DNA of 64,000 nucleotides. Source: Diplocarpon mali. Taxonomy: Eukaryota > Ascomycota > Leotiomycetes > Helotiales > Drepanopezizaceae. A model generated the notes under the pieces. The model was not told the DNA's origin. It saw nothing but the letters and a program-made list of their open reading frames with translations, and ran no database searches. The translations under genes were made by a program, and so were the position numbers. Within the stretch, counting starts at the first letter, position 1, and each line of letters starts with the position of its first letter. Location: positions 62,001-126,000 of the forward strand of contig JAENRP010000065.1 in assembly GCA_024741835.1 (NCBI GenBank), given 5' to 3'. Shown one piece after another: positions 9,082-64,000 of this stretch.

Positions 9082-9104
9082 ACTCGCGAGCCTAGTCTGC
9101 GAGT
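9082..9104. repeat. 23-bp palindromic motif, RNase H-integrase linker of copy A
   Basis: ACTCGCGAGCC / T / ... GCGAGT. The pol frame crosses it open as LASLVCES. It is one of the few copies read in a different phase from the T-x-x-P-x-L-x-V form. Confidence 0.75.
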
Positions 9105-9289
9105 CAAATAAGAGAATTTTATTACCTAATTACTTAAGTAACTCTAAAGAAATCGCGAAATTTTTAATTACGCTTAAATAATTAAAGATAGTTGCTCTTA
9201 AGGATTTTCAGAAATTCAAAGCTAAAGCTCTAATTTATCTAATATAAGGAAGACGATTATTTAAAAGGAGTAATAACTTATTTCTTATA

Positions 9290-10620
9290 CGATTCTGCTT
9301 AGATAATAAAAAACTAAGGGCTAAGGCTATTTAAGATATTTATAAGGAAACTGGCTACTAAGGAGCTAAGTCTACCTACTACTAACTCTTAAGGAAATTC
9401 TTTTAGAAAGGTTCTTTTAAAAACTGCAAAGCTTTTATAAAAAGTTGCGTCCTTTATTAGAAATGAAAACCTAATTATAAAGAGAATCCCCTATTCCTAA
9501 CCTAGCTATTAGGCCTTTTTTATAAAGTCAGTCTTAATATTATATAAGTATTAACAATTGAAAATGGGATTATATATTTTATTCTAATAAAGGAAGACCT
9601 ATTAGGATGGCTTAAAGGACGACCTTTAAGATATACTAACTTTGAATCTATTGCAAAGTTCCTTTAAGAAGACGTAATCTATTGCTATAGACTTTTTAAT
9701 AGACTAACTATTAATAGAGGCCTTAAAAATAAAGGAGTAGTTAAAGCTTTTTTATAAAAATATAGTATTAAATAGGTTTAAATCTTAATATATAACTCGA
9801 AAGCTAATAGAGTAGTAAAGTAAGGACATTGCGACATTCTTAATAGACTATCTAAAGTTACTTATAGAGGATTTAAGAATTAGATAAAACACTTTTATAA
9901 AATACTCTTTGCTTATTAAACGACAATCTATAAACCGATTAAAGTTATACTATTTCTCCTTATTTATAGTAGAGAGGCATAGCTCCTTTTTAAATCCTAA
10001 TAGCCTATTTAAAGATTGTTCAACTATAGTCAAATTCAGAACCGTTCCAATTTACTTATAATAAGATACTAATAACTTAAGCTTTAAGATATAAATATAA
10101 AGGAAATCATTTTATAAAAGAAACGATATTAGGAAAAAGCTAAGGAAGTATAGGCTGCTTCTAAAGTACTTAAAATATACCCTATTTAAAAAGATAATCT
10201 TATCTTAATCTATAATATTATAAGAAGTATTAATATATTAGCTAATACTAAACTTGACTATTAATAGCTTAATCTATTTAAAGTTAAGTTTAAGTAAGAA
10301 GAAAAGGGATACTATTCTCTTTAAGAACTTAATAAAGTCGATATTAAAAGAACCTTTGTAGCTAATCGACTAAAGCGATTTTATTAATGCAACTAAACCT
10401 TATTCTCCTTAAAGGACAAATTAGAAATTGATATAACCTCTGAATCTTTTATAAGAACTGATAGTAATATAAGCAATTTTAAACCCTTAGATAAAGACTA
10501 AGATTTTTCTAACTTAACTTATAAGCCAGTCCTATAAGTGAAGAATATTAAAATACCTAACTAATTGCAACTTTAAGTTATTATTTTTAAAATATCCGAA
10601 GAATGCAAATAGGAATACCG
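9290..10620 (+). pseudogene. Ty3/gypsy integrase, element copy A
   Basis: Integrase region of the host gypsy element. Landmarks read with TAA/TAG as Gln/Trp: YQGAKSTYYQLLRKFFQ and KSCVLYQKQK (N-terminal zinc-binding region, His/Cys partly lost); LLGWLKGRPLRYTNFESIAKF; NRLTINRGLKNKGVVKAF (catalytic-core segment around the second Asp, here Asn); IYNSKANRVVKQGH (for YHPQANGxVERGH, holding the catalytic Glu). The C-terminal tail continues to about 10,620 with KRTFVANRLKRFY. It has no chromodomain, unlike G1 and G2. A second copy at 35,128-36,680 is collinear. Function is lost. Confidence 0.87.
10517..10539. repeat. 23-bp palindromic motif in integrase tail, copy A
   Basis: Arms ACTTATAAGCC and TCCTATAAGT; read in frame as TYKPVLQV (one TAA as Gln). 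Copy B carries the same site at 36,343-36,365. Confidence 0.8.
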
Positions 10621-10933
10621 AACGATTTCCTAGCCTATTAATTATCCTACCTTCCTCTAATCCTTATTTTTACATTTTTGGCAAGGTCGCCTCCTTTATT
10701 ATTTAAGATATAGATCTTTTAGGATTATTTTAAATTCTTACCTATTCTGACTTATTTTATATTCTTAATATTAGCCTTTAATTATAGTATTCCTATTACT
10801 TTCCTTAAATAATAAATAAAAAGTCTAATTTCCTTAATATATATATAGTAAACCTATTGCAGCTTATTTGCCCTTTTAATTCTTATATCCTATTAAACTC
10901 TCTTATTTATACTCCCTATCTTTTATAAGTAAT
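10621..10933 (+). other. Spacer between pol and ORFX1, copy A
   Basis: About 310 bp of T-rich sequence with no recognisable domain. It is conserved in copy B (36,480-36,760), so pol and ORFX1 sit in one fixed arrangement. Confidence 0.6.
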
Positions 10934-11536
10934 ATACCTTTAAAGAATTTATAAATGGTTTTATCTATTACAATAGGGGATAAATAAATACTAGTTATAA
11001 ACTTCTCTTAAAATAGCAAAGCTATTATATTATTAGAAAGCTTTAAATCGACCTACGCAGCTTTAAGAGATACAAAGTAATAAAAACTCCTTTTAGCTTA
11101 CGCGAATACTATTAATAACCTTTTAACCTAAGTAGCCCTTGGAATTCTCTAATTTAATAACTTCCTAATTAAAGAATTAAAACTAAAGGGAATCTTTAAA
11201 GAGGAATTCTTAGCTAATGCAAATTAATATATAACCTTAGCTAACGCTTTTAAAACAGATTAAGATAAAAGGGAAAAATCTATTTAATAATTAGATAATT
11301 TAGCTACTAATAAAAGAGGACTCCTATTTCATTTATGCTTTTTAATAAATATTGATTTTAATAATAGAAGGCAAGTATTATTAAAAATTCTTAAGGAAAA
11401 TACTCCTACTACTAAAGCTATTTAGATTCTTAATTTCTTTATTATTTAAGAAGGAGTAGTAAGATTTTAAGGCAATCGAATTCGCAGTTATAGATTTATA
11501 AGCCTATCTAATATAGTACTTATAGCAATTGATAGA
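10934..11536 (+). pseudogene. ORFX1, copy A, 3'-truncated; uncharacterised large retroelement-linked protein
   Basis: Start chosen by alignment with copy B, where ATG is kept at 36,761 (here ATA). The frame, with TAA/TAG as Gln, gives the N-terminal roughly 200 residues of a protein also seen in copy B and, diverged, in ORFX2. A shared stretch near the 3' edge reads KFQGNRIR, and the end matches copy B to within a few bases of the TRIM. The TRIM array cuts it at 11,537. I recognise no domain. Its position downstream of a gypsy integrase suggests an extra ORF of the retroelement or a captured gene. Confidence 0.6.
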
Positions 11537-12465
11537 TGTTGTGTAGAAAATAGGCTAAATATGCTAGTACGCGCCCTAAGGTATGGATTCACATTTTGGC
11601 TAAGCGGTATTATATACAACAGTTATAAGCCCTATAAGCGTAGCGATAAATCTTTTCGCATTCCTCTTGCGCGAGGTTTAGCCGACTTTTCTCGCTTCGA
11701 AGTTCTGCTAGTAAACTACTTTTTAAAGAATTCGGCAATGATTATACTTGGTTTCGACTGTATCGATAGAAGTTTTAATAGATTTGAGTAAAAAGACGTC
11801 TAATAGCCATCTGATATATGGCCAAAGGAGAAATTGCGGTCTTCCGGCCCTTCCGACCACCTATTTTCTACTAGCTTAGCGGTCTATGCGCTATATTTAT
11901 ACTACTATAGATTAGGCTAATACTTAGGCCGCCGGAAAAACTGTTCTTCCAGCGACCTAGGGGGTATATTATATAGAAAATAGGCTAAATATGCTAGTAC
12001 GCGCCTTAAGGTATAGATTCACATTTTAGCCAAGCGGTATTATATATAATAGTTATAAGCCCTATAAGCGTAGCAATAAATCTTTTCGCATTCCTTTTGC
12101 GCGAGGTTTAGCTGACGTTTCTCGCTTTGAAGTTCTGCTAGTAAACCACTTTTCAAAGAATTCGGCAATAATTATACTCGGTTTCGACTGCATCGATAGA
12201 AGTTTCGACAGATTTGAGTAAAACGACCTCTAATGTATAGCCGAAGAAAAATGCATTCTAGCCCTTCCGACTACCTATTCCCTGCTAGCTTAGCGGTCTA
12301 TACGCCATATCTACGCTACTATAGACTAGGCTAGTACTTAGGCTATCGGAAAAACTGTTCTTCCAGCGACCTAGGGGGTATATTATATAGAAAATAGGCT
12401 AAATATGCTAATACACGCCCTAAGGTATAGATTCACATTTTGGCCGAGCGGTATTATGCACAACA
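11537..12465 (+). mobile_element. Tandem TRIM array: LTR-internal-LTR-internal-LTR
   Basis: Three 85-bp LTRs (11,537-11,621; 11,967-12,051; 12,381-12,465) separated by two internal regions of 345 and 329 bp. The LTR begins TGTTGTGTAGAAAATAGG and ends TATACAACA. Each internal region opens with GTTATAAGCCC (11,622; 12,052), complementary to the initiator-tRNA-Met anticodon half if A is a mutated G, and closes with the polypurine tract CCTAGGGGGTA (11,956-11,966; 12,370-12,380). There is no coding capacity. The outer flanks differ (ATAGA left, GCTAA right), and sequence on the two sides belongs to different gypsy copies, so this looks like a recombination product of two TRIM insertions. A single canonical copy lies at 57,606-58,121. 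Confidence 0.85.
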
Positions 12466-14278
12466 GCTAATAAAAGAACATTTTAATATATTAAAAATTG
12501 GAAATGATTTAATAGAGTAAGAACGCGAACTATTTTATAAAACCTTAATAAATCGAAAGGACGCCTTAGCTTTTGATTAAACGGAACTTAGCCAGATTTG
12601 AAAAGAGGTTATACCTTATATTAAGATTAAGATAATACCTTATAAAGCTTAATAAGAGAAAATATTTAAGGTCTTTAAAGCTCTTTAAGAAAAGGTAATC
12701 GAAATATTAAAGGATAGGCTAAAGCAAAGTATTCTTAAGTTCTATAATAGCCCTTATAAGAATAAATGGTTCTTAATTACTAAGAAAGAGAAGGGAACTT
12801 ATAAACTAATAATAGTAGTAGTAAAGATGAACCGAGTAACTATTAGGGACGCTAACGTTACTTCGAATATAGATAAGTTCTTAAATGAATTCGTAGGATT
12901 AACCTATAGCTCTCTTATTAACTTCTTCTTTAGATATAACCAATTTATTCTTAATATTAAATCAAGAGATATAATAGCAATTCAAACCCTTTTTAAGCTA
13001 CTTTAAATAATAAGATTACCTTAAGAGGCTATAAATTCGATTGCTCAATTTATCTGGGTAATTTATAAGATACTAATAGATTATATACTTAATATTGCGC
13101 TCTCTTATATAAATAATATAAGAGTAAAAGGATTAAGATCATTTTATAATTATAAAGAAGTTCTTCTTAGTATATAATGATTTATAATAGAATATACTTA
13201 AAACCTAGATTAGGTACTTATATAATTTGAAAGGGTAAGAGTAATAGTTAGTCCGAAGTTATAATACTATCTTCTATTAATGGAAATTATTAGTTTTATT
13301 ACTGATTCTAATAGCCGAAGTCTTTAAAGGGCTAAAGTACTTAAAATCGACAAATAGAAGAGGTATAATAATATAGCAAAAGCTTACGCGTTTATTAGTA
13401 TTATAGTATACTATTATATTTAAATCAAGGATTTTGCTAAAAAGGTAGTACCTATTTATGCCTTATTTTAAAAAGGGGCTGAGTTTTAATAGGAAAAACC
13501 TTAAATAGAAGCTATAAAACAACTGAAGCAAGCGTTGCTTAAAGTACTATATTTGATTAAAATAGATTATAAAGCTAATACTAGGCCAATTATACTAACA
13601 GTTAACGCAAGCTTAATTAAATAGGGTGCTATCCTTTAATAAGCTAATAGCTAATAGAAAAGACATCTAGCTTACTTTAAAAGTGGTCTTTAGAATCTAG
13701 TAAAGATAAAGTATAATACTATTAAATAAGAATGCAAAAGCGCTTTAAAGGTAATGAAAAAGATAAGAAGCGACCTTTATAGCACTTACTTCATCTTTAA
13801 ACTGATGCTAAAGTACTAATAGAACAATTAAATAAAGCTATAAGCGACCTACTAAAAGCCTTACTAATAAAATGGATTACTTAAATAAGACTAATAGACT
13901 TTAAAGTCAAATATATTTTAAGAATAAAAAATACTACTACTAATAGCCTTTTAAAAAGAACTCGTCTTTACCCCTTTGATTTAATTAAAGAAGATAAAAT
14001 AGATATTAATAAATAAGTAGAGAATAAAGTTAGTTATCTATTAATATATTGCCTTAAAGGGACTTAACTCGCAAGCCTGGCCTACGAGTTAAATAAGAGA
14101 ATTTTATTACCTAACTACTTAAGTGACTTTAAAGAAATTATAAAATTTTTAATTACACTTAAATAACTAAAGACAGTTTCTCTTAAGGATTTTTAAAAGT
14201 TTAAAGCTAAAGCTCTGATTTATCTAATATAAGAAAGGCGGTTGTTTAAAAGGAGCGATAACTCATTTCTTATATAAC
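12466..14278 (+). pseudogene. Ty3/gypsy RT and RNase H, element copy B (5'-truncated at TRIM array)
   Basis: Collinear with copy A from about position 40 onward, but without its solo LTR and Copia insertions. RT covers roughly 12,600-13,270, including PYKNKWFLITKKEK and a mutated YVDD. RNase H covers 13,276-13,975, including NSLLKRTR. Many Gln/Trp codons are TAA/TAG, and sequence differences from copy A are mostly C/T and G/A. Chromovirus G1 interrupts the frame at 14,279; integrase resumes at 35,128. Nothing upstream of the RT survives because the array joins directly. Confidence 0.87.
14067..14089. repeat. 23-bp palindromic motif, RNase H-integrase linker of copy B
   Basis: ACTCGCAAGCC / T / GGCCTACGAGT, one of the better preserved palindromes. 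Read in the pol frame as LASLAYE. Orthologous to the site at 9,082. Confidence 0.8.
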
Positions 14279-14529
14279 TGTTACGACTTGCTCTGGAGCG
14301 TACAGTGGGTCGAGAATCGAACGCTGACTGTATTACCTCAAGAGGTATGCTATGTAATGGAGAAGAAAAGATAAAGAAGAGAGAGTCTTTAGTAGAGCTC
14401 CTCCAGAATAAGTACAGGTGCTTCACTAGCGTGCACGTGATCCAGCCACCTCGCTACCTTAGCGTGCACCTGACTTCGATACTTCGATACGATATATGAT
14501 ATAACTATGCATATGATGCGGCTGTAATA
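14279..14529 (-). repeat. G1 3' LTR
   Basis: 251 bp. Its plus strand starts TGTTACGACTTGC and ends GGCTGTAATA. Several CACGTG/TGCACG motifs survive in its inner half. Confidence 0.88.
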
Positions 14530-14786
14530 CTACCTTCCCCCTTTGAAAAACTGCGCCCGCGCAGTTGTATCTATAGGCGTATTATCCTCTAGGTCCTTAT
14601 AATTGTCAACTTTATTATTATATAACTTAAGCCAGCTTAATAGCGCCCTCGGTGGCCCCTTAGCTTAAGGGTTCTTTAGATGGAAATCTCAAATAGTATA
14701 TAGCGCTATTATAGCATTAGAGTATAGGTATTATTTAAGGTCTTTATTAGCTCCTTTCCACTTAATCTGATATTTGAGCTTTCTAG
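14530..14786 (-). pseudogene. G1 integrase C-terminus: second half of chromodomain and tail
   Basis: The minus strand reads RKLKYQIKQKGANKDLKQY, then SNAIIALYTI and DFHLKNP, fitting the second half of a chromodomain (xYxVKWxGxxxxxxxWxPxxN) and the tail of a chromovirus integrase. The frame continues to the polypurine tract. The first half of the same chromodomain (LEQKEQEIEEIIRSYIRA) is on the far side of R1, just above 17,697, so R1 split the domain. Confidence 0.8.
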
Positions 14787-15205
14787 TATAAGAGGGAGCA
14801 GGAATAATACCTGAGAATAGGCCTACGTAAAGACTAAAGACAAAGAGGGAAGAAGCACTATAAGCGGGCTCTTTAAAGATAAGAACTAAGATAATTCACT
14901 AGTTAAAGGTAGAATAGGTAGTTAGTATTGCGCGCTATCTTTAAATATAATAGTAGTCTTATATATACCTCTTTCTTAATCCTTATTTAACTATATAACT
15001 TATATTATAAGATCTTTTACTTTTAAGTCTTTATATATGCTTTAATTAACTTAAGTAGCGGCCCTTGCTACTATTAGTAAAGAATATAAGACTTTTGCAA
15101 GTTGAGAATACTAATTCCTATTTATAAAAATAATAAGTATAAGTAAGGTTAGTACTTAAAGTTGTAAAGGTAAGAAGAGGAGAGAGGGTTTTTTTTTTTT
15201 TTTTA

Positions 15206-15228
15206 ACTTACAGGTTAGGCCTATAAGT
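15206..15228. repeat. 23-bp palindromic motif at 3' end of R1 gag
   Basis: Minus strand reads TYRPNLQV in frame with the gag tail; a 16-base T tract (A on the sense strand) follows at once. R2 has the same arrangement at 22,088, where the assembly breaks. Confidence 0.75.
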
Positions 15229-15334
15229 GGATTTTAAAGAAATATATAGAAGGAGAAGGGGAAAGGGAAGGGAGGAGGTGCGGTGGTAAACGAATAAAAA
15301 TGATAAAAACTCCTTTTCCTCCTTTAGTAATACG

Positions 15335-15357
15335 ACTCTTAGTCTAGGACTGCGAGT
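15335..15357. repeat. 23-bp palindromic motif in R1 gag
   Basis: Minus strand reads TRSPRLRV, between ELL and VLLKEEKEF; the equivalent in R2 (21,946) reads TSGPGLGV in the same place. Confidence 0.78.
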
Positions 15358-15757
15358 TAAAAGCTCGAAGTTATTAAAGCTATTAAATCGCAATTTTAAA
15401 GAAAATTCGATAATAATTTTAAGTAATCCTATGCCTTAACTAATTTAAAAGGCGTCCTTGCTAAAGAAAATCTAAGCTTTATATAAAATTATACTAATAA
15501 TTTAGGAATTTCTTTAATATAGCTATATACGATTATTAAGCCTTTTTAAGGTAGCAACTCGCTTATTTAACCTAAGGGAAGCTGGATTTAAGTATTTAAA
15601 GTTCGCATACTAGTTTTTACCTTTTAAAGCCTATTAATTACTAAACTAAAGGGCGCGATGAGTTTCCTAAAGAAGGCCTTCGATTAAGGTTTTTAAATAT
15701 TAAATATAGAGTTTAGAAAACTAGGCTTTAAGTTCTTTGATTTTTAAGGCAGATTTT

Positions 15758-15780
15758 ACTCTTAAGCTAGGATTGCGAGT
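15758..15780. repeat. 23-bp palindromic motif in R1 gag
   Basis: Minus strand reads TRNPSLRV. The R2 equivalent at 21,515 reads TYSLSLRV. Confidence 0.75.
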
Positions 15781-16727
15781 GAAGGGAATTACTACTGGAT
15801 TTCTCTTTACCTCTTTAGTAATCTCTAAAGCCTTCGAATATTCTTATACTAGGCTTTTGAGATCTTTAGTAAAGGAGGAGGTAGGTTCTTTCTCCTTTTC
15901 CATTGCCTTAATAGTCCTTTTACTAAGGTTTGCTTTTAAAGCGAAGGTCGAGAAGTCTTCGAATTAAGCATATATTATAGGATTACGCTTATTAATTTTA
16001 AAATGCTTAATGATCTTATTTCAAAGGCTAGTAGGCAATCTAAGTAAGAATAGGCGTCCTCTTTCAACTTTACTAAGAATCTTCTAATTGATTAAGGTAT
16101 TCGATACTCAAGTAAAGGTCTAATAGTAGTTTTTAAGTTCCTTAAGAGTATAAGTAATAAGAATAAACTCCTTTAGAAAGGCTAAAGTATTACAAATCTG
16201 CTATTTATCAAATTCCTAAAATTCAGCTTTAAGAGCCTTAATAAGTAATTCCTAGGACTTACGAAGCTTCTACTTAAGTAAAGATTTAATAATATCTTTA
16301 TTAGTTTGATTATAGTAGCAGGGAAGTCAATTAATTATCTTATTATATCTAATACTAAAATTATAATAAGTCTCCTTATATTATTTTAGGAAATTAGTAA
16401 TATTAGCTTTAGTGAAATAAGGAGCGCTAAAGGAATTAAGGAGGGGAAAATAATTAGTAATAGCTTTAAAGGCGGCTATTATCGCTTTATTTGTTTTAAT
16501 AGAAAAGGGAGAGCTAGGTCGAATATAAGGCTTAAGGTATTTTAAAGAGTTTTTAAAATCCGAGTCAATCTTAAAGTAACTAAGGCGAGCTTAAAAAGAT
16601 TCGGGCAAAGGGTTAATAGGAAGTTTAAAATTGATATTTTTAAGTATCGATATTGAAAAAGCAAGTGCAATTATTAAAAGGGAAGATAAAGAACTTAAGT
16701 TATATAAAATTGTATTTTTATATTCCT

Positions 16728-16750
16728 ATTCGCAGGCCTGGCCTAGGAGT
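16728..16750. repeat. 23-bp palindromic motif in R1 leader
   Basis: Centre GGCCTGGCCTAGGAGT is intact; the outer ACT reads ATT. It lies upstream of the recognisable gag frame, as does its R2 counterpart at 20,533, so this copy is probably in the untranslated leader. Confidence 0.72.
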
Positions 16751-17444
16751 GAAAATCCGGTTTTTATAGAAAGTTTATTTATACTTTACTAAGACTTCTT
16801 TAATAGGTGTAAAGTAGCAAATAAGGGTATTGCAATCATTAGTAGTAAGTAAAGGTTTATTAAGTTAAAGACTAATTTTTAAGATAAAGTTTCTAAGAAA
16901 GATTCATTTTAGCTTCTAGGATAATTCCTATTAGTCCTTAAAATAAAGGGGTCTCTAGAGACGATTCTAGGGCAGTTTTCAGAGTTCTATTAAGCTAAGG
17001 TAGCTGAATTATTAGATTCGGATTTCTAAAGATTCTAAAGAGACACTTCCGGTTAGAGTTTGCGCTTGGTATTACTTAAGTATTCAAAACCGCTGCTATT
17101 TAAGACTACTATTATAAGGTTTGCTAAACTTTTTATACTAGGAAGCCGAAAATTCCGAAAACCTTAGAGTTGAGGAGGAAAATAGGGGTTTTCAAAGCAG
17201 AGCCGAAAAGGGAAAATCTAAGGTTATTAATAGTAAAGAGTGGCAATCGATAATTCCAAATAACTAAGTGATTGCAAAGTCGATAATAGAGGAATGACAA
17301 CCGATAGTTATAAATAACTAAATGATTATAAATTTAAGAGAGGTTTTCAAAGGGTTGATCTTTTATTTGCAAACTAAGAGAATTAAAAGGAGAAGTCGTA
17401 TAAAGACGAAATCTTAAAGGAATCGTCCTTACGTAGGTTACCAA
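16751..17444 (-). other. R1 5' leader
   Basis: About 0.7 kb between the 5' LTR and gag without a recognisable domain. The sense strand opens with a tRNA-complementary site (TGGTAACCTACG) immediately inside the LTR. Confidence 0.55.
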
Positions 17445-19097: not shown

Positions 19098-19120
19098 ACT
19101 TATAGGCCGGGCCTGCGAGT
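19098..19120. repeat. 23-bp palindromic motif in G1 RNase H-integrase linker (1 of 2)
   Basis: Plus strand arms ACTTATAGGCC / G / GGCCTGCGAGT. Minus frame reads TRRPGLQV, immediately after ...LAQIDS. Confidence 0.82.
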
Positions 19121-19142
19121 AGAATCGATCTGCGCTAAAGTT

Positions 19143-19165
19143 ACTTATAGGGCGGGCCTGCGAGT
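19143..19165. repeat. 23-bp palindromic motif in G1 RNase H-integrase linker (2 of 2)
   Basis: Arms ACTTATAGGGC and GGCCTGCGAGT, 22 bp from the previous copy. Minus frame reads TRRPALQV, so the linker holds two near-identical 8-residue insertions. Confidence 0.82.
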
Positions 19166-20532: not shown

Positions 20533-20555
20533 ACTCCTAGGCCAGGCCTATAAGT
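20533..20555. repeat. 23-bp palindromic motif in R2 leader
   Basis: ACTCCTAGGCC / A / GGCCTATAAGT, with the central 13 bases perfectly palindromic. It is upstream of the clear gag frame, as in R1. Confidence 0.8.
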
Positions 20556-21514: not shown

Positions 21515-21537
21515 ACTTATAGTCTTAGCCTAAGAGT
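21515..21537. repeat. 23-bp palindromic motif in R2 gag
   Basis: Read in frame as TYSLSLRV between VIPF and KSALKIKEL, with the gag frame open on both sides. Confidence 0.78.
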
Positions 21538-21945: not shown

Positions 21946-21968
21946 ACTAGCGGTCCTGGCCTAGGAGT
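21946..21968. repeat. 23-bp palindromic motif in R2 gag C-terminus
   Basis: Right arm GGCCTAGGAGT is intact. Read in frame as TSGPGLGV inside a locally stop-free stretch (21,910-22,101). Confidence 0.8.
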
Positions 21969-22087: not shown

Positions 22088-22110
22088 ACTTGCAAGCCTA
22101 ACCTGCGAGN
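22088..22110. repeat. 23-bp palindromic motif abutting the assembly gap in R2
   Basis: ACTTGCAAGCC then TAACCTGCGAG; its last base falls in the gap. Reads TCKPNLR(V). Confidence 0.72.
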
Positions 22111-24276: not shown

Positions 24277-24299
24277 ACTTGCGGGCTAGGCCTAAAAGT
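24277..24299. repeat. 23-bp palindromic motif in G1 protease-RT linker (1 of 2)
   Basis: Minus frame TFRPSPQV, followed by ASYKPKDSS. Left arm ACTTGCGGGCT, right arm GGCCTAAAAGT. Confidence 0.78.
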
Positions 24300-24321: not shown

Positions 24322-24344
24322 ACTTGCAAGCTAGGACTAGGAGT
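24322..24344. repeat. 23-bp palindromic motif in G1 protease-RT linker (2 of 2)
   Basis: Minus frame TPSPSLQV, 22 bp from its neighbour. The pair has the same spacing as the pair at 19,098/19,143. Confidence 0.8.
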
Positions 24345-25049: not shown

Positions 25050-26125
25050 TTTAGCTTAAAGCAGTCTATCGTATAGTAATTAAGGGCTTTGCAGTTATAG
25101 TAAAGACTAGACAACGGCTTCGGGCTAGCAGACCTTTCTCAATAGGCCGCTGGTAAAGGGGAACGAGTGCAAGGAGCTAAGGAGGTAGCTATAGCTATAG
25201 GTCTTTATAACTCCCTTTTTAGTATACTAGGGACGCGGTCCTTTAAAGGAAAGAACGCGATAGCAAGGGCGATTCGTCAAGCGTTATAGGCTTCTTCTTA
25301 CTTAATATTATAGGCCTTGCGGTCTGCAATAGCTAAGAACTTATCTAAAGTAGTATAATCATTATTTATTTTATACTTCTCTATTCGAAGGTTATTCTTT
25401 AAGGCTAAGGAGACCTTTTTACAAATATTATTAAACTAGCGAGATTAATCGATCTTACTAGCTATAGTAAGGATGACGAACTTAGATCGGAACTTATTAT
25501 ATAATATTAAACCTATAGTTAGCCTATTATATTTAAGCTTAGCGGATTAAATGTAGTTATAATTAAAGAACCTTTGATCTAAGACCCTAAGGATATTAGC
25601 AGCGCATATGAACTTATTAGTAAAGATAGGATCTATATATTATAAGATTAGGTTTTAAGCTTTACCTATTGTATACTTAAAGTAGGTAGTGATCTAGTCC
25701 TCTTTTAAAGTGAAGTTACTTAAGTACTTTTAAATAAATACCTTTATAGCCATCTTTTAAGCATTATAAGTGATTTCGCCCTAGTGGTTACTAAAATAGG
25801 TTTAAGGGTACTTGATCTGATAGGGGTTAATAGCTAGGATTAAAGGTCTAATAATTAAGAGGTAGTAGTCTAAGGGAGGTAGTAAATCGGTAGTAAGGGA
25901 CCAAGTGTTCTAAGGGCTAGTACTTAAGGAAGAAGGGGTAGTAGCATTGTTTTAAAGAGCGGCGGCTATAGCAGCGCTAATAAGGTTTGCGATTTCGGCC
26001 TATTAAGTAGCTGAAAAGAGAGGGGCCAATATAGTAAGGGTAGACGTCGTCGGGGAGAGTATATCTTCTTCCTTAACTTCAATCGATAGTAATAGGGTAT
26101 TTTAAAAATCCACTTATAGGCTGGG
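25050..26125 (-). pseudogene. G1 gag with zinc knuckle
   Basis: The minus strand from about 26,115 downward gives SIEVKEEDILSPTTSTLTI, then MAIKVFIQKYLSNFTLKED, NKFICAANILRVLDQRFF, LALKNNLR and TLDKFLAIADRKAYNIKQEE, the layout of chromovirus Gag. At about 25,070-25,120 YYNCKALNYYTIDCF fits a CCHC zinc knuckle with one Cys (now Tyr) and the His altered. The N-terminus crosses a 23-bp palindrome at 26,112, where Copia-3 landed. The remaining upstream leader is at 33,727-34,876. Confidence 0.82.
26112..26125. repeat. Left part of a 23-bp palindromic motif split by Copia-3
   Basis: ACTTATAGG plus CTGGG here; the remaining ACTAGGAGT is at 33,727-33,735 after the second CTGGG. Rejoined length is exactly 23 bp, and the target duplication is its centre. 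Minus frame TPSPSLQV, in frame with G1 gag. Confidence 0.8.
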
Positions 26126-35127: not shown

Positions 35128-36680
35128 CTAACTCTATTTAAATAATAATAAACTATAAGCTAGGGCTATTTAAGATATTTATAAGGAGATAGACTACTAA
35201 AGAGCTAAGTCCACTTACTATTAGCTTTTAAGAAAATTCTTTTAAAAAGGTTCTTTTAAAGATTATAAAGCTTTTATAAAAAGCTATATCCTTTATTAGA
35301 AACAAAAACCTAGTTATAAGGAGAATCCTCTATTTTTAACTTAAACATTAGGCCTTTTTTATAAAGTCAGCCTTAATATTATATAAGTACTAACTATTAA
35401 GAATAGGATAATATATTTTATTTTAATAAAGAAAGACCTATTAAAATGGCCTAAAGGACGACCTTTAAAATCTGCTAACTTTGAATCTATTGCAAAGACA
35501 TAGTCTATTGCTATAGACTTTTTAAAAGATTAACTATTAATAGAGGCTTTAAAAATAAAAGAGTAGTTAAAGCTTTCTTATAAAAATATAGTATTAAGCG
35601 GGCTCAAATCTTAGCGTATAACTTAAAAGCTAATAAAGTAGTAGAATAAGGATACTATAATATTTTTAATAATTTATCTAAAGTTACTTATAAAAGATTT
35701 AAGGATTAGATAAAACGCTTTTATAAAATACTCTTTACTTAATAAACGATAATTTATAAACCGATTAGAGTTATACTATTCTTCCTTATTTATAATAGAG
35801 AGGTATAGCTCCCTTTTAAATCCTAATAGCCTATTTAAAGATTATTTAACTATAGTCAAATTCAGAACTATTCCGATTTACTAGTAATAAGATGTTAATA
35901 ACTTAAGCTTTAAGATATAGATATAAAGGAAATCATTCTATAAAAGAAATAATATAAGGAAAAAGCTAAAGAAGCATAGGCTGCTTCTAAAGTACTTAAA
36001 ACGCACCCTATTTAGAAAGATGATCTTATCCTAGTCTATAACATTATAAGAAGTATTAATATATTAGTAGATACTAAACTTGACTATTAATAGCTTAGCT
36101 TATTTAAAGTTAAATTTAAGCAAAAAGAAAAAGGATATTATTCTCTTTAAGAACTTAATAGAGTCGATATTAAAGGGACCTTTGTAGCCAACCGATTGAA
36201 ACGCTTTTATTAATACAACTAGACCTTATTCCCTTTAAAAGACAAATTAGAAATTGATATAACCTCCGAATCTTCTATAAGAATTAATAGCAATATAAGC
36301 AATTTTGAACCCTTAAACAAAGACTAAGATTTTTCCAACTTAACTTATAAGCCGGACCTGCAAGTAAAGAATGTTAAAATACCTAATTAATCATAACCTT
36401 AAGTCATTATTTCTAAAATATCTAAAGAATATAAGCAGGAATACTAAGCGATTTCTTAGCTTATCAATTGTCTTGCCTTCTTATAATCCTTATCTTTATA
36501 TTTTCAGTAAGGTCGCCTCCTTTATTATTTAGGATATAGATCTTTTAAGATTACCTTAATTTCTTATTTACTTTGACTTAATTTGCATTCTTAATATTGA
36601 CCTTTAATTATAGCATTCCTATTACTTTTCCTTAAATAATAAATAAAAAGTCCAATTTCCTTAATATATATATAGCAAAC
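35128..36680 (+). pseudogene. Ty3/gypsy integrase, element copy B
   Basis: Resumes the copy B pol frame after G1 and is collinear with 9,290-10,620: AKSTYYQLLRKFFQKGSF, LLKWPKGRPLKSANFESIAK and so on. It differs from copy A by a 13-bp deletion at 35,497/35,498 (bounded by AAG), which shifts the integrase frame; this is not a RIP effect. The tail carries a palindromic motif at 36,343. The segment 36,480-36,760 is the T-rich spacer to ORFX1. Confidence 0.85.
36343..36365. repeat. 23-bp palindromic motif in integrase tail, copy B
   Basis: ACTTATAAGCC / G / GACCTGCAAGT; in frame as TYKPDLQV. Copy A (10,517) reads TYKPVLQV. Confidence 0.8.
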
Positions 36681-52381: not shown

Positions 52382-52394
52382 ACTATATAATTTG

Positions 52395-52417
52395 ACTTAT
52401 AGTCCTAGACTAGGAGT
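52395..52417. repeat. 23-bp palindromic motif in ORFX1 (1 of 3)
   Basis: ACTTATAGTCC ... ACTAGGAGT; in frame as TYSPRLGV, 13 bp after the Copia-2 insertion point. Confidence 0.78.
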
Positions 52418-53780: not shown

Positions 53781-53803
53781 ACTTGCAATCCTGGCCTATA
53801 AGT
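53781..53803. repeat. 23-bp palindromic motif in ORFX1 (2 of 3)
   Basis: Left arm ACTTGCAATCC, right arm GGCCTATAAGT; in frame as TCNPGLQV. Confidence 0.8.
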
Positions 53804-54665: not shown

Positions 54666-54688
54666 ACTTATAAGCCTGGCCCGCGAGT
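54666..54688. repeat. 23-bp palindromic motif in ORFX1 (3 of 3)
   Basis: Left arm ACTTATAAGCC, right arm GGCCCGCGAGT; in frame as TYKPGPRV. Confidence 0.8.
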
Positions 54689-54945: not shown

Positions 54946-55100
54946 TTTTTTTAGGATTATCTACTTCTTATATATTAGCATCTTATTATTCTCTATTTAT
55001 TATTTTATTTTATATATATTCTTTATTCTACTTCATTCTTTATATAATCTATCCTTTGATTATTTCCTTTGTATATAACTTTCTAACGCTTACCTTTGAA
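54946..55100 (+). other. Spacer between ORFX1 and ORFX2
   Basis: T-rich, beginning with a run of 11-12 T followed by AGG. No feature is recognised beyond possible pyrimidine-tract/AG resemblance to a splice acceptor. Confidence 0.4.
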
Positions 55101-56319: not shown

Positions 56320-56342
56320 ACTTATAGGCCCGGCCTATAAGT
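56320..56342. repeat. 23-bp palindromic motif in ORFX2 (1 of 4)
   Basis: ACTTATAGGCC / C / GGCCTATAAGT: a perfect palindrome around the central base, the best preserved copy in the window. In frame as TYRPGLQV. Confidence 0.9.
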
Positions 56343-56505
56343 GGAATTAGCATATAAGGAGAATATCCTTAAGCCAGAGGTACTTATAATACTAAGAACT
56401 TAAGTAGCTGACCTACCTGACTACTAATCCTCTAACTTAAACGAATTTGAGTTACTATCCTTAGAAATGCCTTAAATACCTTAAATACTAGTAGTAAAGA
56501 AAATG

Positions 56506-56528
56506 ACTTACAGGCCTGGCCTATAGGT
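56506..56528. repeat. 23-bp palindromic motif in ORFX2 (2 of 4)
   Basis: ACTTACAGGCC / T / GGCCTATAGGT; in frame as TYRPGLQV, the same peptide as the copy 186 bp upstream. Confidence 0.85.
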
Positions 56529-57605: not shown

Positions 57606-58121
57606 TGTTGTGTATAATACCGCTCGGCCAAAATGTGAATCCATACCTTAGGGCGCGTACTAGCATATTTAGCCTATTTTCTATATAATATACTCCCTAG
57701 GTCGTCGGAAGAATAGTTTTTCCGGCGGCCTAAGTACTAGCCTAGTTTATAATAGTGTAGATATAGCGCATAGACCGCTAAGCTAGTAGAAAATAGGTAG
57801 TCGAAAGGGCCGGAAGACCGCAATTTCTCCTTCGGCCATACGTCGGACGGCTATCGGACGTCTTTTTACTCAAACCTATCGAAACTTCTATTAATATAGT
57901 TGAAACTGAGAATAATTATTGCTAAGAATTTAGGAAATCGGCGACCGGTAGAACTTCGAAGCAAAAGAAACGTCGGCTAAACCTTGCGCAAGAGGAATGC
58001 GAAAAGAATTATCGCTGCGCTTATAGGGCTTATAACTGTTGTATATAATACCGCTTGGCCAAAATGTGAATCTATACCTTAGGGCGCGTACTAGCATATT
58101 TAGCCTATTTTCTGCACAATA
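57606..58121 (-). mobile_element. Single TRIM element inside ORFX2
   Basis: 516 bp with 85-bp LTRs (57,606-57,690 and 58,037-58,121) and target duplication AGTGC/GGTGC (57,601-57,605 and 58,122-58,126; one G-to-A). Sense is minus: primer-binding site GTTATAAGCCC at 58,026-58,036, and the polypurine-tract complement TACTCCCTAGG at 57,691-57,701. It has no coding capacity. It interrupts the ORFX2 frame, which rejoins cleanly after removal. Confidence 0.92.
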
Positions 58122-58256
58122 GGTGCTCTGCTGACTCGATATAAGTCTTTATACAAACTAGTGACATATCCTAAGCCTATATAGTTTATTGGAATTGACT
58201 ACCACTTAAGAGTTATTGCTACTAAGATTAATGCTAATATAAGATTTGTAAGATTA

Positions 58257-58279
58257 ACTCCTAGGCTTAGCTTGCGGGT
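58257..58279. repeat. 23-bp palindromic motif in ORFX2 (3 of 4)
   Basis: ACTCCTAGGCT ... GCTTGCGGGT; in frame as TPRLSLRV. Confidence 0.75.
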
Positions 58280-59078
58280 TAATCTATTTAATAATAGAAC
58301 TATTGACTACTATATGATTCCGGTAGCTAAACAATCGACTAGAGAATTCGCTATTAGGGAAAAATCCTATAAATTATTAAATCTTATACCCTAACGCCTT
58401 AAGAATGCTTAATAGATCTTACTGAATCTGGCTTAAAATGCAGTACAATAGAAAGAATTAAATACTAGAGAGAAGACACTTCTAAAGGAGTATATCTTTA
58501 ATAAGATAACTCTATTCTTTATATTTACTAGATAAGGCACGTTTATTAATATAGAATCTGCTAAAGAACTAGGAAAAGGTGGCTTTCTTACTATTAGCAA
58601 TAACTATACAAAAGTTGTTAGTAATAACTCATTAGAGAATGGCATAGACTTAGAAGATTTTCTTATCAATTCTATTAGTATAAAGAGACCTAGCATTGCA
58701 AAATGGAGTATTGCTAGAGAATCGTTAGCTAAATTTTATATAACGCTTAGTATGATAAAAGGAGGCCTACTATTAGAGGCACTTATAGGAAAACGGCTAT
58801 AGAATGATCTATTAGTAGTAATGATAGTAAAGGAGTTATTCTCCAAAGATATAGCTTAGTTAATAATATATTTGAAGAAGTATAAGTAGGAACTTTTTAA
58901 TAATTTCACTTACACTTAGAAGCTGATTTAATAGTTAGAGCTATAACTATATAGGGATAAGTCCTAGACTAAGATAAAAGGCACTAATGATAATATTAAG
59001 GCTAATAATATGATTAATAAGACGATCCTTCTCGAAAAGTATAGCATTAAGAAACCTTATGCTAAACCTTCCGATATA

Positions 59079-59101
59079 ACTCCTAGGCCTAGCCTGCAAC
59101 T
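59079..59101. repeat. 23-bp palindromic motif in ORFX2 (4 of 4)
   Basis: ACTCCTAGGCC / T / AGCCTGCAACT; in frame as TPRPSLQL within the intact C-terminal stretch. Confidence 0.8.
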
Positions 59102-59426
59102 TATATCAACTAAAGGTAAAGAAAAGGAAGTATTATCTATTAAATTGCCTATCTTATCCTCCCTTGCGATAGAAGAATCTCTAAAGGATGATAATGATAA
59201 TAAAGAGGATGATAATAAGGATGCTATAACGCAAGTTTCTATCCCTATCGGCCGAAGTCGTTATACCATACTAGCATTAGCAAAAAGCACTAAGACTCCT
59301 GCCACACTAAGACCTATCTTATCAGACACTAATAGCGATGCTATAAAAAGAAGTAGTTGTTTAGCAAAAAGAGTATTATCTAGTAATAGTTCTCCCTATC
59401 CTTTAAAGAGAATTAAGGAAAACTGA

Positions 59427-59725
59427 TACTTAAGTTAGTTCTATTTTAATTGTTTTTACAATTCTATAGCCTATTTATTTGTTTTGCTAATTTCGTTTTC
59501 TAACTCCTAGGCCTGGCTTATAAGTGAAAAGTGTATAAAAAAAAAAACTCTTCTTTTTTTCTTTTACCTTTATTAATAATATAGCCTTAGTTAAGGCCTT
59601 TTAATATATTAGTTTTCTTATACTTAGGATTTGCTAATAATTGATATACTATTGCCTTAACTTGTATTATTTTATATTCTTTGCTAAAAGTAGTAAGGGC
59701 CACTACTTTTATTATTTAAGATATA
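59427..59725 (+). other. 3' untranslated region of element copy B
   Basis: It contains a palindromic motif (59,503-59,525), an A tract at 59,537-59,548 and, before the LTR, a hairpin-like AGTAGTAAGGGCCACTACTT. R1 and R2 end with the same three-part arrangement (palindrome, A tract, AGTAG...CTACT), which ties ORFX2 to the same LTR superfamily. Confidence 0.6.
59503..59525. repeat. 23-bp palindromic motif in 3' UTR after ORFX2
   Basis: ACTCCTAGGCC / T / GGCTTATAAGT, outside any open frame. Confidence 0.82.
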
Positions 59726-59972
59726 TATAAAGACCTAGGTATAGATGAATCATATGATAAAAGTCATATAATAGGGCAGGGCCGATAGGAGGATAAAAAG
59801 GGCCTCTTCTGTATATAAAGACAAGCGCGTATCGCCATAGTACTAAATATACCCTATACTTAGGACTTATTCCCAATATCTTATCTAAAAGAGCCCGCTT
59901 GTAGTGCTTCCTCCTCTTGTTTTTGGGTCTTCCCTTAGGCCTATTCTTATGTTATCTCCCCTTTGTTTTATA
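59726..59972 (+). repeat. 3' LTR of element copy B
   Basis: 247 bp, same family as the solo LTR at 19,961-20,205 but opposite strand. Begins TATAAAGACC (TGTGGAGACC before RIP) and ends GTTTTATA. Its flanks do not match (TATA left, ATAG right), and the upstream sequence resembles an R-type 3' UTR, so it is read as the 3' LTR, not a solo LTR. Its outer edge cuts a palindromic motif. Confidence 0.78.
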
Positions 59973-59991
59973 ATAGTCCTGGCTTAGGAGT
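59973..59991. repeat. Partial 23-bp palindromic motif cut by the LTR
   Basis: Nineteen of 23 bases remain (ATAGTCCTGGCTTAGGAGT). Minus frame TPKPGLL. The left four bases would lie beyond the element's other end. Confidence 0.65.
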
Positions 59992-60007
59992 CATTTTCGC
60001 AAATTTC

Positions 60008-60030
60008 ACTTATAATCTTAGCTTAGAAGT
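60008..60030. repeat. 23-bp palindromic motif in the copia-type gag remnant (1 of 2)
   Basis: Minus frame TSKLRLQV; more mutated than average (central CTTAG). Confidence 0.65.
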
Positions 60031-60097
60031 CTATCTATTCTCCTTATCCTCGCTCAATTGTATTAGGGTAGAGAGTGCACTTTCCTTAAAGGAATCT

Positions 60098-60120
60098 ACT
60101 TATAGGTTTAGCTTAGGAGT
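60098..60120. repeat. 23-bp palindromic motif in the copia-type gag remnant (2 of 2)
   Basis: Minus frame TPKLNLQV, followed by DSFKESALS. Confidence 0.72.
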
Positions 60121-61700
60121 TAATTTCTATAATATCACCTTTAAGATAATATAAAGTCTATCTTTGATTTTTACTTTAAAGATCACTTTATAGTTATTAT
60201 TTATAAACTATATGAATTGATTATTAAAAACTCTTATATAATTCAACTTTATATAGATCTTGCGGCTAGATAAAAGATTAATACTTAAGCTAGGTATAAG
60301 GAGAACATTTTGCAAAAGGAAAGAAATGCTAGCGATATTCATTTCTACTATACCTATTAAGTCTATATATAACCTTTTACTATTAACTTTAATAGAGCGC
60401 CTTTTTATTTTAATAAGCGGGCCTTTAAATAGGTAGGGTTTGTCAATTATATATACTATATAACTAGTATCACTATACTAATCGGATTTAAGGATCTTAT
60501 AAAGATCGGCTTTTAAGATGTAGGCATCTTTATTATAATTATTATTTGAATTATCAGAAGTGGATTTAAGTTTAAATGATCTACTATTATTATTAGAAGT
60601 ATCTGCTAAAGTTCTGGCTAAATAGCCTTTTCCTTTACCTTTCTTTAATAGTTGCGGCCTTCGGTAGGATAAGGGCAGTTTGCTTCTTGACTTCTGCTTC
60701 GATTGCTTCTTAATATTAAAGCTAGCGATTATATCGATTAGTTGCCTTTTAACTTTATAATTAGTAATATTATAAGTACTATTATAGAAGTAGTATCTCC
60801 GATAAGCTTAATGGCTTATCCTGCGCTCCTTCCTCTTCTTAAGCTTATCGTTGCTTTATAATACGGCATTTGCTATTTTAGAGCGTCCTTTAAGGTCTTG
60901 CTTAATAGTTCGAAGGAGGTCGATCTTCTTATAGATCTTAAGGTTGGGTTAGATAAGAAGAGATTGTTTTATAATAGCAAACTTAAGAAGGAGGCTATTA
61001 AGTAGGAAACTAAAAAGTTGAATTTCCTTAAAAGTTATAGCTATCCTAGGATCTATAGCTCTTATTCTCCTTCTCACTTTATATAGTATAGACTAGGCAG
61101 AGTCTATATTTATATCTATATCCTTATTATCTTTATCTTTTTTATATTAAAATAAAGTGATCTACTATAGTAGATATTAGGTATTAAAGGCAGTTGTTTA
61201 AAAGTATTTTACCTTTAAAGTATCCTATCTTATCTTTATATTATTATAAATTTGAATAAAATCTCGGTCTTTATTGCTTAAACCTCTATTGATCTTAAGC
61301 TTGCATTTAGCTAAGGCTAATCTATACTCCTTCTCCTTTTTTATATTTAAAATCTGCCTTTAGGATTCTCGATTATTATCTATTAAAGCTCTTAGGCTAA
61401 GCTTATTTAATATATTTAGCAAATCCTTAACAGTTATATTAGCTATTAAAGTAAAAGTAGACGAATTAGTAAAGGGAGTATAAGGGGCTATTCTTGCGTA
61501 TTTAATAAGTATCTTTTAAATCGCTGTTTCAATACCTTTACTTTTAAAGTAAAGCTTTAAATCGTCGAACTATTATTGCTAGTTCTTTCGAAAGAGTAAG
61601 AGGTCTTTAGGCCTAGTGTTTCGATCGGAATCGGAAGCTATTGCCGTTTTAAATAGAATTGCATTTAAAATCAAATAAATTAAATGGTTAAAGGCACTCC

Positions 61701-62250
61701 TCTTATCGAAAAGTCGAAATGATTAAATAGTAGGTATTATAGAAGTATTAAATAGGAAGGAAGTCCTCTTATCGAAAAGGGTTTTTAGGCTATAACGCAA
61801 GGAATTATACCTCTTATAAAATATAGTAAAGTAAGGAATCATACCTTTTGCAATACTAAAGGGTTATAAAGCAAGGAATCACACCTTTTACAATATAGGT
61901 TAGCTAAATAGGGAATCATACTTCCTATTCGCCAATTGCTCGCCTTTTACTATAAGTCTTATTCAACTTCCTACTAATAGTTGCAATATAAGTGCTTTCT
62001 AAAGGAAGTCAATAATCTATTATCGGTCTAGCTGGGCTTATAACCTATTAAGCTTAAGTAAGTCGGCGCAGTAGGTAAGAGAAGCTTTTAAAGGTTGATA
62101 GTCGATATATTAGTAAGAGTTAGGGAAGGAAGGTTACCCCTTTCTTCCCTATAGCTATATACGTATTAATATCTTACTAACTAAGCAGTAGGGTTATATG
62201 ATAATACATCAGAGTGATGGCTATATCACCTATCTTAATAGATTATACTA
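61701..62250. other. Non-coding stretch between two minus-strand gag remnants
   Basis: It carries a direct repeat of CCTCTTATCGAAAAG (61,702 and 61,765), a tandem repeat (61,797-61,930) and a G/A-rich versus T/C-rich inverted repeat (AGGGAAGGAAGG ... CTTTCTTCCCT at about 62,125-62,152). It may include the 5' LTR of the copia-type remnant, but I cannot fix its ends. Confidence 0.45.
61797..61930. repeat. Tandem repeat, 34-40 bp period, about four units
   Basis: Units start at 61,797, 61,831, 61,871 and 61,909, each beginning AAGGAATYAYACC or close. Confidence 0.75.
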
Positions 62251-64000
62251 TTTTTCAAAATTCCAGATTTAACTCTTAAGCTAGGCTCGCAGGTCAAATC
62301 ACTATTATTCAAAATTAGTAAACTCACCTTCCTTTCGCTATAACTCCTTATTAAGTGCCTTCCTTTACTAGTATTAAGCCTAGCCCTTATACTAGCTAAT
62401 CGTTTCCTAAAACCTTATTTTAGAATTCGGCTATATCTCTTGCGATAACCATTTGTCCTTCTAAAGATCGATTTATATTTTAAAGACTAGTTTTTATAAG
62501 ACTATCTTTAGGATAATTAAATATTAGCTGAGATTCAAAAAAAAGGGCATTCTTAAAAGAATATTATTTAAAGAATTCTTTATTATTAGAAAGTCAGTAT
62601 AATTAATAATTCCTTTAACTTTAACCTTTACGTTTTTCACTTATTTATTAAAATTGTATTTCGATCTAGAGATAGTCGAATAAATAAGGAGTCGATCGCT
62701 AACGATTATTAATTAAGATATTTCTACCACTTTTCTAATTATTGTATTAACTTCTGAACTATAATCGATTAAAGCCTTTACTTTAACTGATTCTTTTATA
62801 GAATAAATAACTATAGGGCTTTTTATTATAACTGCTAAATAATTTCAATTAATATTTTAAGATATTAAAGCTATTGCTATAATATTATAGTACCTTTAGG
62901 TTCTTTTATCTTTTATAATCTAAAGACATTTGATTAAGGCTAAGTGCTTCTTAAAGTTCTTTTACATTATAATTTCCATTTCCTTATTATTATTCAAATC
63001 TTTAGATATAATTAGGATATGCTTTCCTAGCACTTTATTAAACTATTTAATTAAATTAAATAGGTCTTTAAACGTAAGGTTTATTTACTAAGCTATAACA
63101 TTCTCTATAGCTTTTTCTATTGCGGTTAAACTAGCGTATTTATCGACGAATTTTTCCTATTTTAATATTTGTCTCTTTTACTTAAGGTTAAAGGTCTGCG
63201 TAATAACTTTAACTTCTTAATCTTTAAGCTTAAAGCTATCTTTATCTATTATATCCCTAATTAATTCGTCTACTATATCGGCTTTATCCTCGTCTATTGC
63301 GATTCTAGATTATTAAGTATCTTTTAGCATTTAAACTCTATATTAAGATTCCTAAGTTATACGCATTGACTTTTGGACTTTAGCTAGTTTTATTAGTATT
63401 AAAGGAGTAGTAGATCTAAAAGGACGCTGAGTATTCTAAGGGTTTCTAGATATAGAAGTAGCATTAATATTAGTAGATACGTTATTATTAACCTACTTTA
63501 AAATAGAGATACCTTTGACTTTAATAGTAGTCTGGTTCGAAGTTTAGTTAGTAAGCACTCCTTTAGGTAGATTACTAGCTAGACCTATATATATATAAGT
63601 TAGGACCTTAGAGTTTATTTCGATAATGCGCTTTTGTTTAGTTAAATCCTTATCCTACTTTGTATTATATATTATTATTTAAATAGTCTATAGTTATAAA
63701 CGATTCTAATGTTTTTTAATAGGGATAGCCTTTAGCTTAGGATCTTTAATATAAAGCATCTTATACTTATTAGTATATATAATCCTAGTGTTAATAAAAC
63801 GATAGAAAAGAGGATATTTATTATAATACTTATATAGAAGGCAATTAGGTTCCTTATTATTGCAAAAGTTGCAAGTTAGTCTTCTTCTATTGCCATTCCC
63901 TTAGTACCCTATAGCATTAATATTAGTAAAGTGCTAGTTAGGATCAATTTCTCCTTCTTTAATCAACTGTTAAGTTCTTATATTAGCTAGTTATTCCAAA
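62251..64000 (-). pseudogene. Ty3/gypsy gag-protease remnant (runs off the window)
   Basis: The minus strand reads, from the right edge, RRRLTCNFCNNKEPNC (a Cys-rich segment near 63,860-63,900), YRFINTRIIYTNKYKMLYI, then, near 62,745-62,800, VKALIDYSSEVNTI. This fits the retropepsin ALIDxGSEVN block of fungal gypsy elements, with DCG changed to DYS by G-to-A. LLRMPFF about 200 bp further is the LGMPFL end of that domain. A palindromic motif lies downstream at 62,272. RT is not found; the remnant stops near 62,250. Confidence 0.7.
62272..62294. repeat. 23-bp palindromic motif after gypsy protease remnant
   Basis: Minus frame TCEPSLRV, followed by KSGIL; open through the motif. Confidence 0.75.

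Follow-up and report, generated by a model that had tools for sequence, protein, structure and literature searches.

Introduction

Palindromic inserts that code for protein have been cited from Rickettsia, Wolbachia and a single archaeon (PMC2996958; here and below, background is drawn from the parts of the cited papers available to us). The Rickettsia palindromic elements (RPEs) are bacterial palindromes of ~150 bp, dispersed in phase within unrelated proteins, metabolic genes among their hosts, with nearly half lying in open reading frames and the rest outside (PMC10969869). Here, we describe a dispersed palindrome of 23–24 bp from a fungal nuclear genome. It recurs throughout a 64,000-nucleotide stretch of Diplocarpon mali (GenBank assembly GCA_024741835.1, contig JAENRP010000065.1, positions 62,001 to 126,000; hereafter the window) and has so far been found in copia and gypsy transposable elements or in ORFX, a gene for a protein of ~1,100 residues.

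The insert resembles RPEs, and the coding palindromes of Wolbachia and Methanocaldococcus, in being a dispersed palindrome that encodes a fixed peptide in phase within unrelated proteins; it differs in its length and in its host, its relatives lying in an ascomycete rather than in Rickettsia (PMC10969869). Palindromic amphipathic repeat coding elements (PARCELs) offer a second likeness, as a tandem protein repeat arising from dyad-symmetric DNA and partly linked to mobile elements; their unit, however, is a 25-residue amphipathic repeat of DUF285 type (PMC2996958), whereas ours is an 8-residue Pro-Gly motif, TxGPGPxV, in units mostly of 15–16 residues with unrelated spacers, and Pfam finds no DUF285-like domain in proteins P0012 and P0122–P0125. 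Yeast mitochondrial GC clusters are likewise short GC-rich palindromes in AT-rich DNA with reported constraint, and a cited title names tandem arrays of them (PMC4478555). They are mitochondrial, measure 42 bp in the case of GC42 and have putative target duplications (PMC4478555), whereas the present insert is nuclear, its hosts being repeats with a signature like that of repeat-induced point mutation (RIP) on contigs of up to 560 kb, and shows no detected duplication. Some of these clusters start ACTCCTTCGGGGT, with ACTCC in common with the insert, probably by coincidence (PMC4478555). The hairpin site of fungal GalEa copia elements is also a palindrome kept in copia, but it comprises nine base pairs just past the 5′ long terminal repeat (LTR), occurs once per element, and is discussed as an unusual primer site rather than as a dispersed sequence (PMC5445492). 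By analogy, then, the closest kinds are RPEs, PARCELs and yeast mitochondrial GC clusters. Titles and opening lines of abstracts of openly licensed papers on palindromes in fungal or Diplocarpon retroelements and on coding palindromes yielded analogues and no description of the insert; five of the motif peptides had no match in the openly licensed literature, and the available main text of two D. coronariae genome papers (PMC11527701, PMC12158172) holds no word beginning “palindrom”.

Results

Copies in the window and genome-wide

The 23-bp near-palindrome has 3,867 sites at two mismatches or fewer in the 49.4-Mb genome (676 contigs), against one for a reversed-pattern control. The window itself holds 20 copies at up to three mismatches where dinucleotide shuffles predict 0.12, and 25 copies at up to four, every one of them among the 29 positions which an earlier note on this DNA had listed. 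All 29 were printed and read directly: two further copies (60008 and 62272) were accepted by eye, through paralogy with the arrays of loci L018/L021/L028 and with L022:6268, respectively, and 59973 is truncated, whereas the supposedly split copy at 26112 is a left half only and is unsupported. The copies are as follows (window coordinates; strand, with a dot where none is assigned; identity; L numbers denote fetched loci, and HSP a high-scoring segment pair).

9082..9104;.; palindrome copy, unclassified repeat family; site common to 14067 and L012:9481; paralogous segments 8285–9289 / 13271–14274
10517..10539;.; palindrome copy, unclassified family; site common to 36343 and L015:740
14067..14089;.; palindrome copy, paralogue of 9082
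15206..15228;.; palindrome copy; site common to 22088; inverted paralogue pair 15211–16944 / 22105–20339
15335..15357;.; palindrome copy; site common to 21946
15758..15780;.; palindrome copy; site common to 21515, L022:8181 and L026:8366
16728..16750;.; palindrome copy; site common to 20533, L010:9264 and L022:9190
19098..19120; −; gypsy RNaseH–integrase linker, 45-bp array copy 1; phase 0
19143..19165; −; gypsy RNaseH–integrase linker, 45-bp array copy 2; array of 19098
20533..20555;.; palindrome copy, paralogue of 16728
21515..21537;.; palindrome copy, paralogue of 15758
21946..21968;.; palindrome copy, paralogue of 15335
22088..22109;.; palindrome copy cut by assembly gap, paralogue of 15206
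24277..24299; −; gypsy CCHC–reverse transcriptase (RT) interval (protease–RT linker), 45-bp array copy 1; phase 0 in the paralogues' open frames, no HSP; protease by eye
24322..24344; −; gypsy protease–RT linker, 45-bp array copy 2; array of 24277
36343..36365;.; palindrome copy, paralogue of 10517
52395..52417; +; upstream ORFX-like frame, site 1; assigned via right flank common to L009:689; own flank cluster
53781..53803; +; upstream ORFX-like frame, site 2; phase 0
54666..54688; +; upstream ORFX-like frame, site 3; L009:2960 cluster, 2 of 10 members in an HSP, both phase 0
56320..56342; +; ORFX site 1, TRGPGPRV in intact proteins; phase 0
56506..56528; +; ORFX site 2, TRGPGPRV or SRGPGPRV; phase 0
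58257..58279; +; ORFX site 3, TPGPGSRV; phase 0
59079..59101; +; ORFX site 4, TPGPGPRL or TPGPGPQL; phase 0; in the window's longest open stretch (152 residues)
59503..59525;.; noncoding copy 3′ of the ORFX stop codon; paralogue L026 has the end of its ORFX HSP at 7574 and the copy from 7655
59973..59991;.; truncated copy lacking its left end, array start; direct reading
60008..60030;.; decayed array copy, more than four mismatches; by eye
60098..60120;.; array copy; site common to L014:7906, L018:9145, L021:4727 and L028:4284
62272..62294;.; decayed copy, more than four mismatches; by eye, flanks common to L022:6268

The 9082/14067 pair was at one point considered as LTRs and dropped, the two being paralogous copies of a repeat, one interrupted by another element. 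Window positions 1098–8282 are a nested element with direct terminal repeats of ~165 bases, which interrupts the repeat copy holding 9082.

Clustering was carried out on the window and 20 loci of 10 kb, each fetched because it bears a copy. The 190 copies of this sample fell into 40 flank clusters, some of them pieces of others, which merging by eye reduced to ~22 separate sites. Five 10-kb gene-rich stretches from other contigs (GC 45–52%, longest frames 324–482 residues, without a RIP signature) contain no copy; the control is a modest one, since only 3.9 copies would be expected in these 50 kb under uniform spread. The window has no Rfam match at the gathering threshold. A pattern scan of viral contigs returned a single match, judged to be chance.

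The unmutated form of the insert

The window and the 20 loci have few CA/TG and many TA dinucleotides, with a GC content of 32% for the former and 27–39% for the latter (one half-N locus excepted), which we take to be the signature of RIP; short loci fetched at un-RIPed copies are milder (index (CA+TG)/(AC+GT) of 0.65–1.15 for the first 20 of 40). Because no reading frame in the window runs 200 residues from stop to stop, frames were taken from intact relatives, which were sought also because the RIPed locus L009 (+ strand, three frames) gave only RVT_2 in Pfam. A gypsy pol piece used as a homology query led to D. coronariae proteins of 68% identity, and protein readings of the low-RIP copies L038, L050 and L049 are 89.0%, 88.5% and 70% identical to the D. 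coronariae copia protein P0126, so that the genome belongs to this species or to a close one (Helotiales). In the intact copia, gypsy and ORFX proteins of that species, the insert is read as T-x-G-P-G-P-x-V or close variants, the gypsy RNaseH–integrase linker being DSTPGPGPRATSAQINSTPGPGPRVTIV.

The un-RIPed pattern ACTCNNGGGCCNGGCCCNNGAGT has 291 genome sites at no more than one mismatch, against none for the control. At least 50 sites are exact; among the matches listed, 40 were fetched, and BLAST assigned each to one of three places: 3′ of the copia stop codon (32), the gypsy RNaseH–integrase linker (5) and the copia gag–protease linker (3). The common unmutated form, ACTCCYGGGCCNGGCCCGCGAGT, is an oriented, imperfect palindrome with GGGCC/GGCCC arms; one strand codes for TPGPGPRV and the other for TRGPGPGV. 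Its architecture, 11-bp inverted arms (mostly with a mismatch) around one central base, is that of terminal inverted repeats like those of miniature inverted-repeat transposable elements. Positions 5 and 19 are C/C or G/G in 38 of the 40 fetched exact sites, 32 of the 40 being one site in one family. The consensus quoted earlier, beginning ACT[C/T]NNAGGCC, is the RIP-mutated form, and the peptide T-x-x-P-x-L-x-V deduced from it gives way to TxGPGPxV.

Hosts, reading phase and orientation

Reading phase was assessed using tblastn HSPs of eight intact D. coronariae proteins, which cover 91 of the 190 copies in 15 clusters. For 14 of these, every HSP puts the insert in phase 0. The remaining cluster (L013:4473/L019:4724, phase 2) has four mismatches and no clear arms, and we judged it to be a chance match. 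With arrays and matching ORFX sites counted once, there remain ~8 independent coding sites, far from one third per phase, which bears out the earlier description of the insert as mostly in frame. An in-phase palindrome in unrelated proteins (copia, ORFX, and gypsy with its RT, RNaseH and CCHC matches) is also what the earlier note had proposed in comparing the insert with RPEs, and the analogy is supported.

Most copia and gypsy sites lie between domains, in keeping with the preference for linkers first noted from the window. P0126 has two copies in its gag–protease linker (TREPGPGV) and three in its integrase–RT linker (TPGPGPRV), in opposite orientations relative to the coding strand, and the DNA at both places agrees (L050 versus L011:9112). 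In gypsy, copies occupy the gag N-terminus, the protease–RT linker (as an array) and the RNaseH–integrase linker, with CCHC, RT, RNaseH and integrase identified by Pfam and proteases by eye; the ends of protease and integrase in both groups were placed partly by motifs that we take to mark them.

ORFX (P0122–P0125) has four insert sites and no Pfam domain above the cut-off, protease and RT domains included. Its relatives among the matches listed number four, all from D. coronariae; since each of the three protein searches scored no more than the ~8,000 candidates with the most words in common, relatives missing from them are no proof of absence. Upstream of ORFX, the element has a second, diverged ORFX-like frame, with sites at three places that appear to correspond; the fourth place has none. 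This paralogue precedes ORFX in L026, L027, L015, L009 and the window, and in three loci (L016:3480–8948, L009 and L028) ORFX is followed by a copia RT/RNaseH piece in the same orientation; the whole may be a composite derived from copia and carrying two additional genes.

In two families, copia and ORFX, the insert also lies outside coding sequence, 70–77 bp beyond the stop codon (for copia, HSP end/copy start 8948/9023 in L016 and 2808/2882 in L028; L013 alike on the opposite strand). The insert is therefore not purely a peptide-level feature, nor is it confined to coding sequence. In all, 25 of the 40 clusters fall outside every HSP; besides the two noncoding sites and the gypsy array, these are unclassified or pieces of named sites. 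Assembly gaps start 7–17 bases from the post-ORFX noncoding copy in L009, L012, L014, L016, L024, L026, L027 and L028. A second palindromic stretch seemingly lies downstream of the copia noncoding copy (L034:515–546 and relatives, with BLAST matches on both strands).

These observations bear on one alternative, in which a flexible Pro-Gly linker or protease processing site is selected as a peptide and spread by recombination, the palindrome deriving from one ancestral coding sequence. Such a linker would account for the single phase and for the inter-domain location of four of the five gypsy/copia coding positions (gag–protease, integrase–RT, protease–RT and RNaseH–integrase), and similar peptides, TREPGPRV and TREPGARV, occur in linkers of the unnamed gypsy proteins P0013 and P0003. 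It fits poorly, however, with copies 3′ of stop codons, with the reading of the reverse complement in that phase too, with presence inside ORFX (which lacks a Pfam protease or RT domain) and with the wobble constraint described below, and we consider it improbable.

Relatives lacking the insert

One comparison of proteins with and without the insert proved useful. No TxxPGxxV motif occurs in P0127, a copia protein of Rhynchosporium graminicola with 59% identity to P0126 across aligned residues; relative to it, the two-unit Diplocarpon readings of the gag–protease linker are 26–27 residues longer and the single-unit L049 is nine longer. Lengths from a conserved RWL back to the motif agree, so that the insert is 24 or 27 bp (8–9 residues); the integrase–RT linker is too variable for such a comparison. 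Among the ten nearest gypsy proteins outside Diplocarpon (P0003–P0011 and P0013), nine have no similar peptide in the RNaseH–integrase linker and one, P0003, has LTREPGARVE (containing TREPGARV). P0013 (STREPGPRVK, containing TREPGPRV) and P0009 (TRDPGPPV) have similar peptides at other positions, in linkers; all three peptides are short and were picked post hoc, with a loose pattern ([TS]..PG..[VLAI]) that also matched dissimilar ones.

Inheritance, conservation and arrays

Within families the insert is inherited: among 741 ordered comparisons at 23 non-array site clusters (excluding array clusters, clusters of fewer than three members and hits above 99.9% identity), no paralogue lacks it. 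Independence, proposed earlier for ~23 loci, holds between separate sites (~22 after merging by eye); the copies within a family share an ancestor.

Conservation was first counted on motif-matched copies and redone on all spanning BLAST hits to remove bias. Over the 23 clusters, transversions amount to 0.9% inside the insert versus 3.9% in the flanks, and transitions to 16.8% versus 14.2%; transversions are fewer inside in 15 clusters and not fewer in eight, the signal coming mostly from the ORFX family. At six ORFX-family sites, third positions with a transversion number 0 of 42 motif columns versus 44 of 240 flank columns (Fisher p 0.0004; 0 of 36 and p 0.0012 without the centre), leaving out flank pairs below 62% identity, windows that contain N or are interrupted where a locus ends, and members less than 60% similar to the reference. 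The flanks have the third-position excess of transversions expected for coding sequence; gene conversion among copies could equally explain the constancy of the motif. Across 39 site representatives with arms pooled, third positions in the arms are also constrained (T at position 3 in 91%, G at position 9 in 78%), figures inflated by the search pattern, which itself contains those bases. That these positions are far from free argues against peptide convergence, which would not predict constraint. Outside the 23-mer, one free base is followed by pyrimidines leftward and purines rightward, position −1 being C or T in 97% (same representatives, symmetrised).

Constraint of this kind would suit the strongest rival explanation, a cis-acting nucleic-acid signal, either a site of protein binding or an RNA hairpin serving packaging, dimerisation or reverse transcription, which different element families acquired by recombination and keep under selection, with the peptide as a by-product. 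The absence of transversions from ORFX third positions, the lack of any insert-free paralogue, retention in the upstream ORFX paralogue despite its strong divergence (in three positions that seem to correspond, some of them via nearby gaps) and the copies right after the stop codon in two families are all consistent with a signal, as are predicted RNA folds (three-base loop, −10.7 to −17.5 kcal/mol). Against this, the hairpin is little better than shuffles in two of four folded forms (z −1.3 and −1.8), and the commonest un-RIPed form is mismatched at positions 5 and 19 (in the 38 of 40 above, dominated by one site). Position and copy number vary between families, with ~10 motifs counted by eye in the L018 arrays; transversions inside are not fewer than in the flanks in eight of the 23 clusters; and codon phase need not matter to a signal. 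We regard a cis signal as rather unlikely.

Spacings below 130 bp (n = 52) are most often 45 bp (17), followed by 48 bp (8), 39 bp (3) and 54 bp (2), with spacers that differ between sites; triples with 61–66 bp spacing have no assigned coding status. Arrays with a period of ~45–48 bp and different spacers occur at unrelated sites (L011:3021–3066, L017:7003–7093, L011:9067–9160 and L018:8794–9016). Tandem duplication at one site, as in a coding minisatellite, describes the insides of arrays only; single copies in separate flank clusters and those 3′ of stop codons stand outside it. Chance, or mere common ancestry of the host elements with minisatellite growth, would explain why copies within families are inherited and why all 21 of 21 gapped comparisons fall in arrays, mostly as changes of 45- or 48-bp units, but the controls are near zero, the flanks of copia, gypsy and ORFX sites fell into separate clusters, no common descent of the linkers in these hosts is known, and the copia copy beyond the stop codon lies outside any coding repeat; we find this account scarcely credible.

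Discussion

The explanation that we place first, with about even confidence, is that a palindromic insert of ~24 bp, made up of an oriented, imperfect inverted repeat of 23 bp and one further base, became dispersed among LTR retroelements. It would have entered ~20 separate sites, in both orientations, in copia, gypsy and ORFX-bearing lineages, and been retained where harmless—in polyprotein linkers, in the phase that reads T-x-G-P-G-P-x-V, and in sequence 3′ of stop codons. Thereafter, each family would have inherited its copies, sometimes multiplied them in tandem (in units mostly of 45–48 bp) and finally undergone RIP. Both orientations, the noncoding copies, the third-position constraint and the insert-free relative together favour a DNA insert over a selected peptide. 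We infer, rather than observe, that the insert moves as a unit; the most likely route would be that reverse transcription copies the hairpin from one co-packaged retroelement RNA to another, since classified copies all lie in copia, gypsy or ORFX, the last followed by a copia piece in three loci.

Several points weigh against spread of such an insert. No target duplication emerged: the bases adjoining the insert are identical in nine of 36 sites, the chance level, in a test of single-base duplication on RIP-mutated flanks without a clean empty DNA site. With none of 741 paralogues lacking the insert, no recent jump is seen, and no mobilising enzyme turned up, none having been searched for. ORFX is at most a putative retroelement gene, and restriction of the palindrome to retroelements is tentative, since the gene-rich sample is only 50 kb and the 20 large loci were chosen as copy-bearing. 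Finally, strict phase and absent transversions suggest a selected function that a purely selfish insert would not need; phase and conservation likewise suggest that the insert, once in place, is not neutral.

More tentatively, and with well under even confidence, the insert may be a nuclear micro-element of ~24 bp that parasitises LTR retrotransposons, being copied as a hairpin in reverse transcription in either orientation and surviving within proteins because its palindrome spells a harmless Pro-Gly linker; it would then perhaps be the smallest mobile unit of the eukaryotic nucleus. The peptides TREPGPRV of P0013 and TREPGARV of P0003, in gypsy elements of other sources, would if true point to a wider class. 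The palindrome has the look of a very small insert that has spread from one mobile element to another. A fungal nuclear case in retrotransposons, with thousands of copies in coding and noncoding positions, would provide a tractable system for the spread of very short inserts, and would also bear on retention in one codon phase and on how retroelement polyproteins gain linkers; comparison of strains and sister species could date such gains directly.

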